This document shows, one piece after another, positions 25,268-29,126 of a stretch of DNA of 64,000 bases. Each line of letters opens with the position of its first letter. Within the stretch, counting starts at the first letter, position 1. The notes below the pieces were generated by a model. It had not been told where the DNA came from. It worked only from the letters and a program-made list of their open reading frames with translations, and did no database searches. Source of the stretch: Acidobacterium sp. (GTDB lineage Bacteria; Acidobacteriota; Vicinamibacteria; Vicinamibacterales; UBA2999); contig NSIL01000004.1 in assembly GCA_002737365.1 (NCBI GenBank), positions 62,001 through 126,000 of the forward strand. The letters run 5' to 3'. Made by a program: the position numbers and the translations under genes.

Positions 25268-25807
25268 ATGAGAGGGGGACGTCTTGTGGCGCTGGTGCTG
25301 CTGACGGCGTCGCTTGGTGCGTGCGCCGCCAAGGCACAGGTGCGCACCGAGGTCGAGGTGCCACTCCTCGACCCGCCGCCGCCGCCACCTCGAGTCGTCA
25401 CCATCTACCAGGAGGCGCCGCCGCTGGTGCCAGCGCCGCCAGTGGTCGAAGCCGTTCCCGCGCGTCCCGCAGGGCGACCCGCGCGTCCCGATGCAAAGCC
25501 CGAGGCGCCGGCGCCCGTCGAACCAGTGCCGGAAGCTCCCAGGCCCTCACCGCCGTCGCTCACGCTCACGCCGTCTCCTGGTGCCGAGGCGCAGACCGTG
25601 GTGGCGATTCGCGAGTTGATGGCCAGGGCGACGCGTGACCTGTCGCGAGTCAACGCCGCGTCATTGAATGCCGACGGCCGCGTCCAGGCCGAGGCGGCCC
25701 GCCGCTTCCTGCAGCAAGCCAACGAGGCGCTCAAGGGGCGCAACGTCGTGTTTGCCGGCAAGCTCGCCGATAAAGCCGCCACCATCGCCGCTCTGCTCGT
25801 TCGCTAG
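25268..25807 (+). CDS. Proline-rich lipoprotein
   Basis: 179 residues. Lipobox LLTASLGAC with cysteine near residue 19, then a Pro-rich extended region (residues 35-110, PPPPPP and many PxP) that could span the periplasm, and a helical C-terminus (VVAIRELMARATRDLSRVNA, then AARRFLQQANEALKGRNVVF and LADKAATIAALL) resembling the C-terminal helices of several acidobacterial lipoproteins that follow NtrC-type two-component systems. No enzyme motif. It probably belongs to the operon of the two preceding genes. A GTG at 25262 is an alternative start. Confidence 0.8.
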   Translation: MRGGRLVALVLLTASLGACAAKAQVRTEVEVPLLDPPPPPPRVVTIYQEAPPLVPAPPVVEAVPARPAGRPARPDAKPEAPAPVEPVPEAPRPSPPSLTLTPSPGAEAQTVVAIRELMARATRDLSRVNAASLNADGRVQAEAARRFLQQANEALKGRNVVFAGKLADKAATIAALLVR

Positions 25808-25828
25808 CCGGCGGCGACGAGCGCCGCC
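25808..25828 (+). terminator. Hairpin behind the two-component/lipoprotein operon
   Basis: CGGCGGCG, loop ACGAG, CGCCGCCG: a perfect 8-bp GC stem immediately after the TAG at 25805-25807. The U-tract is poor (TTAATTT begins about ten bases later), so it may be an mRNA-stabilising end rather than a true intrinsic terminator. Confidence 0.5.
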
Positions 25829-25949
25829 GTGCGGGCAGTTAATTTCTGGTTGTCGCGACTGCACACGCCTGCACCGTGACGATTGTTTACGTTGCCGAAA
25901 AACTTTCGTTAAGCGAAAATATAACGAATCAAAGCATTACGGCCAAAAT

Positions 25950-25997
25950 CCGCGAGATATTGCGGACGCCCTAAAAGAAAAGCGCAATATGTTGTGC
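25950..25997 (+). promoter_or_regulatory. Two NrdR-box-like operators upstream of nrdJ
   Basis: Site 1, 25950-25965, CCGCGAGATATTGCGG; site 2, 25982-25997, GCGCAATATGTTGTGC. Both fit the NrdR consensus acaCwAtATaTwGtgt at its core (site 2 is the better match), both are near-palindromes (12 of 16), and they are exactly 32 bp apart, close to three helical turns, the usual NrdR spacing. NrdR is the ATP/dATP-sensing repressor of ribonucleotide reductase genes. The next gene on this strand is the class II reductase. The nrdR gene is not in this window. Confidence 0.75.
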
Positions 25998-26006
25998 CCA
26001 AGGTGC

Positions 26007-26035
26007 TTGACAACCATTAGTTACAGGCGCATATT
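26007..26035 (+). promoter_or_regulatory. nrdJ promoter
   Basis: TTGACA at 26007-26012, a 17-bp spacer, and CATATT at 26030-26035: a close sigma-70 match, among the best in the window. It starts nine bases after the second NrdR-box-like site, which would let NrdR compete with RNA polymerase. Transcript start would be near 26042. Confidence 0.65.
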
Positions 26036-26041
26036 TGGCTC

Positions 26042-26237
26042 CGCGCTCGAAGATGACTTTCAATCGCCAGACACCTCCCGGCGTCAAACGATTGAGGCTG
26101 AATCGGAGCCGAGTACGAAACGAAAAGAGCCGATTTAGAGACGTCAGACCGCGCGTAATAAACAACTTTAGAAGTAATTAGTTCAGATAGGGCGTTCGCC
26201 CCATAGGGGAGGGGTGTCGCCATTCGGAGGAAGAAGC
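26042..26237 (+). other. nrdJ 5' leader, AT-rich, no recognised riboswitch
   Basis: About 196 bases from the predicted transcript start to the ATG, clearly poorer in G+C than the rest of the window. It contains a small hairpin GGGC-GTTC-GCCC (26190-26201) whose right arm could instead pair as CCCC-ATA-GGGG (26199-26209), two mutually exclusive structures near the Shine-Dalgarno GGAGG at 26226-26230. I looked for a cobalamin riboswitch, which would suit a B12-dependent enzyme, and found no B12-box. Function unknown. Confidence 0.45.

Positions 26238-29126
<2,889 letters not shown>

Follow-up and report, generated by a model that had tools for sequence, protein, structure and literature searches.

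The closest described systems are the promoters of ribonucleotide reductase (RNR) genes controlled by NrdR. Loaded with ATP and dATP, NrdR assembles into a tetramer on two boxes three helix turns apart; its targets include the class II promoter nrdRJ in Streptomyces coelicolor, where residues D15 and R17 read the boxes, and it is also present in species that have only one RNR operon (PMC9110341). A second study describes repression of nrdJ by NrdR during aerobic growth of Pseudomonas aeruginosa (PMC4409342), and a third reports that binding is best when the box centres lie at integer helix turns, that the usual spacer is 15-16 bp, and that the boxes of S. pneumoniae nrdHEF stand entirely upstream of the -35 element (PMC12051234). 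That NrdR can control class II genes and that it occurs in single-RNR genomes is already published, and the novelty that the original prediction saw in NrdR control of a lone class II enzyme is not supported (PMC9110341, PMC4409342). At the RNA level, an nrdJ RNA (RF03034) is reported from Streptomyces in two papers (PMC8079986, PMC8388888).

Here we compare with these systems the region in front of nrdJ in a 64,000-nucleotide stretch of DNA from the order Vicinamibacterales (Acidobacteriota), the whole of which we call the window; coordinates of its features are collected in Table 1. In common with S. coelicolor nrdRJ, P. aeruginosa nrdJ and E. coli nrdHIEF the locus has two 16-bp palindromic boxes, and it shares with the known NrdR operators a spacer of 15-16 bp, a distance of about three helix turns from centre to centre, and a position at an RNR promoter. 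The arrangement has the two boxes, the spacer (16 bp) and the integer-helix-turn distance between centres (32 bp) expected of NrdR promoters. The box pair lies directly upstream of the -35 element, as it does at S. pneumoniae nrdHEF. What sets the locus apart from known NrdR double operators is a conserved CCTAA in the spacer and, in this order, a leader RNA. We regard the nrdJ region as an ordinary NrdR promoter joined to a candidate new cis-regulatory RNA.

Table 1. Features of the nrdJ upstream region, in window positions.
Feature	Position	Strand	Remarks
NrdR box 1 CCGCGAGATATTGCGG	25950-25965	+	16 bp, near-palindromic
Inter-box spacer	25966-25981	+	16 bp; contains conserved CCTAA
NrdR box 2 GCGCAATATGTTGTGC	25982-25997	+	16 bp, near-palindromic
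Sigma-70 type promoter TTGACA-N17-CATATT	26007-26035	+	-35 = 26007-26012, -10 = 26030-26035
Candidate leader RNA, whole	26052-26236	+	span of covariance model R1 match
H1 outer stem TCAATCG/CGATTGA	26060-26066/26089-26095	+	fold, 7 pairs; H1 = 26060-26095
H1 inner stem GAC/GTC	26070-26072/26083-26085	+	3 pairs, score 3
H1 loop core UCCCGG	26076-26081	+	conserved core
H2 outer arms GGCG/CGCC	26191-26194/26218-26221	+	H2 = 26191-26221
H2 inner arms GCCCC/GGGGT	26198-26202/26211-26215	+	within H2
H2 loop AUAGGGGA	26203-26210	+	contains GGGG
Shine-Dalgarno GGAGG	26226-26230	+	sequence
nrdJ, class II (adenosylcobalamin-dependent) ribonucleotide reductase	26238-29126	+	NF005122 1449.7 bits, TIGR02504 578.5 bits

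A single NrdR box is a weak signal, since CWATATATWG, which we take to be the 10-mer NrdR box consensus, had 9 matches with at most two mismatches in the window against 6.7 expected; the cores of boxes 1 and 2 depart from it at 2 and 1 positions, respectively. Allowing at most one mismatch, a search for twin boxes in the 32-bp register hit a single site in the 3.05 Mb of the genome and none in the control. Because the pair is unique in the genome and recurs upstream of nrdJ across the order, we conclude that it is not a chance occurrence. An open frame at 25668-26138 matched no Pfam family and was treated as chance.

For the comparison across Vicinamibacterales we used 110 nrdJ upstream regions drawn from at least 149 genomes with a NrdJ match, leaving one of only 148 nt (L085) out of the box counts. 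Twin boxes with up to two mismatches at 31 or 32 bp, a pattern relaxed after seeing the same data, were present in 106 of the remaining 109 regions and in 0/109 after shuffling. When at most one mismatch was permitted, 85 loci had the pair at 32 bp and 12 at 31 bp, and no other distance from 26 to 39 bp was represented by more than 4 loci. The double operator with centres 32 bp apart, as originally predicted, is borne out both in the genome and in the order, and the family designated f8 has kept it as well (16/17). Beyond the order, 17 of 20 Acidobacteriota, one of them from the same class, had a pair with up to two mismatches at 30-33 bp. In a separate set of 80 nrdJ loci from named records a pair with up to four mismatches was counted, without a shuffle control, in 29. 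The spacer motif CCTAA occurs in 60 of the 93 order loci that have the 32-bp register (3/10 in family f8) and is not explained by the NrdR boxes alone. The promoter lies next to the boxes and ahead of the nrdJ start at the positions that had been predicted for it, its -35 and -10 elements agree with the consensus in 10 of 12 letters, and transcription of nrdJ is predicted to begin at about 26042. Promoters and start codons of the relatives were assigned by a scripted rule, by which 100 of the 110 loci received a TTGAC promoter with a spacer of 16-18; it stood 5-20 bp past the box pair in 95 of these 100, and the 10 loci to which none was assigned were omitted from the leader counts. The operator upstream of nrdJ is an ordinary NrdR site.

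The genome to which the window belongs (G000; 3.05 Mb, 97% complete) encodes an NrdR, on which the original prediction depended, at a site away from nrdJ (TIGR00244, 181.5 bits). This protein carries the Zn-ribbon and ATP-cone domains, and D15 and R17 fall at the same positions in it as in the S. coelicolor protein, by count rather than by alignment. At nrdR itself, where boxes were to be looked for, the 32-bp register yielded no twin box. The NrdJ protein gave domain matches at E≤0.001 to PF02867, PF08471 and PF12637, and the same search at that threshold showed no ATP-cone. PF02867 had a single match in the genome, nrdJ, and NrdD (PF13597) was not found, so that nrdJ seems to be the only RNR detected there, as the description of a lone class II enzyme had it; this rests on searches with PF02867 and PF13597 of a genome 97% complete and is not absolute. 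We noted that in four genomes (G177, G225, G255 and G217) the NrdJ match, although it stays in one open frame, breaks near query residue 500 into two neighbouring parts, which suggests a short insertion or a dissimilar stretch in some Acidobacteriota.

The leader of nrdJ had been described as AT-rich, and it is so in relative terms, with a G+C content of 0.53 against 0.65 for the window. Two small hairpins can be read from its sequence, GGGC-GTTC-GCCC at 26190-26201 and GCCCC-ATAGGGGA-GGGGT at 26198-26215, and these are mutually exclusive, as originally proposed; they exist as sequence, and both belong to a more extensive leader RNA with the hairpins H1 and H2, which most of the order has conserved. 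As a whole the window leader shows no exceptional stability given its composition (z -0.63). No terminator or attenuator was found in it, and that reading was rejected on this ground; since H2, in addition, ends four bases ahead of GGAGG, an effect of the leader on translation or decay is likelier than one on termination. A 42-codon open frame (26053-26181) overlies H1 and the linker, and no Shine-Dalgarno sequence was seen before it.

Alignment of the leaders on the promoter brought out H1, with the loop core pattern [UA]CCC[AG]G at 28-46 nt past the -10 box. This core was present in 72 of 87 leaders from families other than f8 and in 0/13 from f8, against about 4/100 after shuffling, and was represented in all 12 of the non-f8 families sampled (12/13 families overall). 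Five of the 13 f8 leaders had their promoter assigned away from the boxes; they may be misplaced, which makes the judgement on f8 less secure. The order-wide loop of H1 is UCCCAG: 65 of 71 core-selected leaders have U at its first position and 63 have A at its fifth, the remaining letters being fixed by the selection itself. H2, which has GGGG in its loop and closely precedes the Shine-Dalgarno sequence, is mostly present too. GGGG at 20-75 nt before the start was found in 59 of the 71 H1-bearing leaders against 29.5 expected, and in 4/17 f8 leaders against 5.0 expected. The mean stem score of H1 was 5.29 in 84 leaders (16/100 had no H1 candidate and were omitted), compared with 3.63 when the 3' arms were swapped and 4.10 in the top of 50 replicates; that of H2 was 5.73 in 80 leaders (20/100 had no GGGG and were omitted), compared with 4.05 for swapped arms and 4.36 in the top replicate. 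Well-scoring stems are not present in every leader: of the 87 non-f8 leaders, 54 reached 4.5 or more for H1 and 67 reached 4.4 or more for H2. The geometry of H1 is variable, with loops of 7-12 nt among the selected cores; its per-pair counts take the best-pairing geometry for each sequence and are inflated accordingly, the arm-swap controls having been given the same freedom. Both hairpins were present in 60 leaders, H1 only in 18, H2 only in 8 and neither in 14, a co-occurrence with an odds ratio of 5.8 (p 6e-4, no correction for kinship). The linker between them contains the motif CAACA in 19 of 80 cases, where 5.1 were expected.

The H1 and H2 stems are supported by covariation: their arms change and their loops stay fixed. 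We drew up 22 leaders and placed 19 of them in an alignment, A1, leaving out L044, L046 and L060 by choice. RNAalifold on A1 returned H2 only, with both-sided changes at 8/8 consensus pairs and a covariation term of 0; the test of H1 used its core as an anchor instead. The 17-pair structure had a covariation of 0.393 against 0.228 for shuffled alignments, none of 500 of which reached as high a value, and this dropped to 0.107-0.210 when the partners were slid. Two weaker measures gave 11 both-sided changes against 9.5 (102/500 shuffles as high) and 32 further pair types against 27.5 (16/500 as high). The two loops could also pair with each other. The loop-loop cells are paired in 97% of cases and nearly invariant, and because both loops vary so little this pairing draws no support from covariation. 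The UCCC of the window has a full Watson-Crick partner, GGGA, within the GGGGA of its H2 loop, and in the six of 71 H1 cores that read ACCC three loop pairs remain. From this complementarity we infer that a kissing contact of the H1 and H2 loops, which would tune translation, is likely.

The reach of the leader RNA was examined with a covariance model, R1, built on A1. The window scored 51.5 bits (E 7e-8) with its own row (L004) among the training rows. With 91 other nrdJ loci R1 matched 42 times at E≤1, and 18 of these matches reached E≤0.01; one of the 42 (the second of L028) has the wrong strand, and we judge a number of the best ones to be close kin of training rows, those of L021, L113, L046, L053, L047 and L088 being less so. 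In 79 loci from named records there was one match, L189, apparently the named counterpart of training row L026. When 80 genomes of the order were searched under strict filters, 24 had a match at E≤1. The 26 matches in these genomes comprised 21 in front of nrdJ, 4 elsewhere (E 0.15-0.77) and 1 (G292) that could not be assigned; every one of the 17 that reached E≤0.02 stands before nrdJ. Among the 20 Acidobacteriota outside the order, none had H1 with a stem score of at least 4.5 and R1 found no leader, its best match (E 0.016, L220) lying about 600 nt upstream. The counts of boxes, H1 and R1 matches outside the order thus show boxes across the phylum and an RNA that was seen in this order only. 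Within the order, the leader RNA may have been lost from family f8, or never gained by it.

The leader RNA matched no family in Rfam. Positions 25900-26350 gave 0 matches at E≤10, with Cobalamin (RF00174) and RF03034 included, and at gathering thresholds none of the 20 relatives' nrdJ loci searched, out of 29, gave a match. Like the Streptomyces RF03034 RNA, the leader has two hairpins in front of nrdJ; unlike it, the Vicinamibacterales leader has other loops and other conserved letters. The RF03034 model found nothing in 60 genomes of the order under strict filters; in a positive control, 7 of 118 genomes from the class to which an Amycolatopsis record belongs passed its cut-off, and none of three named actinobacterial genomes did. 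As neither the window, its relatives nor the 60 genomes gave a match, and as the loops differ, membership of the leader in RF03034 was rejected. In two actinobacterial nrdR-nrdJ regions (L190 and L192) we noticed GCGGCTCTTCCCCAGCC at 14 and 135 nt, respectively, before the nrdJ match; the hairpin there, with its C-rich loop, resembles H1 by eye and was not found by R1. No description of the Vicinamibacterales leader turned up in the mostly open-access literature covered on nrdJ and RNR leaders and riboswitches.

Cobalamin riboswitches regulate B12-related genes and use a loop-loop contact (L5-L13). With a kissing contact and a B12-related gene the nrdJ leader would resemble RF00174, but it has no covariance match to that family, and a cobalamin riboswitch in the leader was rejected on the Rfam results for the window and the 20 relatives' loci. 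The absence of such a switch, read originally from the letters alone, holds under a covariance search. It had also been called unexpected for a cobalamin enzyme if no class I enzyme exists, and here we differ: in the presence of B12 these riboswitches usually repress B12-independent isozymes or B12 uptake. The genome has one Cobalamin riboswitch match, away from nrdJ (L003, 1501-1696), and the open frame beside it, judged from reading the frame, looks like a TonB-dependent (BtuB-like) receptor.

The reading we favour, and hold to be fairly probable, is that an NrdR operator acts on the only detected RNR and that the leader RNA, through H1 and H2, adds control near the ribosome site. NrdR, encoded elsewhere, would bind the twin boxes as a dATP/ATP-loaded tetramer and repress the nrdJ promoter at high dATP, as extrapolated from other species. 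The nrdJ transcript would then begin with the leader RNA, H1 with its UCCCAG loop at the 5' end and H2 with its GGGG loop before the Shine-Dalgarno sequence, and the making or breaking of the contact between the loops would change the access of ribosomes; their complementarity, their position and the lack of a terminator point this way. It is possible, if rather unlikely, that the NrdR operator alone regulates and that the hairpins have a passive role, one perhaps stabilising the 5' end and the other keeping the ribosome site clear. The conserved core is indeed small (a 6-nt loop and GGGG), f8 keeps its boxes without the RNA core, and the best R1 matches all lie at one gene. Passive hairpins, however, would need neither a fixed loop nor a partner loop of GGGG, yet the core is found far above its shuffled frequency in non-f8 leaders and GGGG is enriched.

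That the leader is a ligand-sensing riboswitch, turned on by adenosylcobalamin or responding to a nucleotide, with the H1-H2 kissing as its expression platform in the manner of L5-L13, we consider unlikely. Its conserved position, the complementary loops next to the Shine-Dalgarno sequence, the excess of CAACA in the linker and the B12 dependence of the sole detected RNR would suit such a device, whereas the leader matches neither Cobalamin nor any other Rfam family, has no large conserved junction able to form a pocket, and gives R1 matches at E≤0.02 only at nrdJ, the four elsewhere being weaker. In its most specific form, a new riboswitch class in which either adenosylcobalamin, acting as an activator, or a deoxynucleotide governs the UCCCAG-GGGG contact, the proposal is distinctly speculative; a ligand, if the leader has one, is something that we can only infer. 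H1 might instead be an anti-Shine-Dalgarno element, the CCUCC of its loop binding GGAGG and not GGGG. All five letters of CCUCC (26074-26078) in the window can pair with GGAGG, but the 71 core-selected leaders contain CCTCC in 19 cases and CTCC in 30, as against the downstream GGGG in 59, and we judge this improbable. Control by a leader peptide is more remote still and can hardly be entertained: the 42-codon frame is open in the window, but it lacks a visible Shine-Dalgarno sequence, its ATG is missing, by eye, from the genus relatives L006, L009 and L011, and the hairpin occurs where the frame does not. As the frame is not conserved among relatives, this reading was rejected.

For the biology of these bacteria, the operator half of the finding is ordinary and places nrdJ in the NrdR regulon. 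The leader half is a conserved structured RNA before an enzyme to which the genome showed no alternative. Because no ATP-cone was found in NrdJ, NrdR and the leader together may carry most of the control of total activity. The prediction is compact, with two loops of a few nucleotides each that are testable directly in a reporter. If the riboswitch reading were true, synthesis of the single B12-dependent reductase would be matched to its cofactor or its product, on top of control by NrdR; should the leader sense the cofactor or nucleotides, it would provide a second, RNA-level control of dNTP supply.
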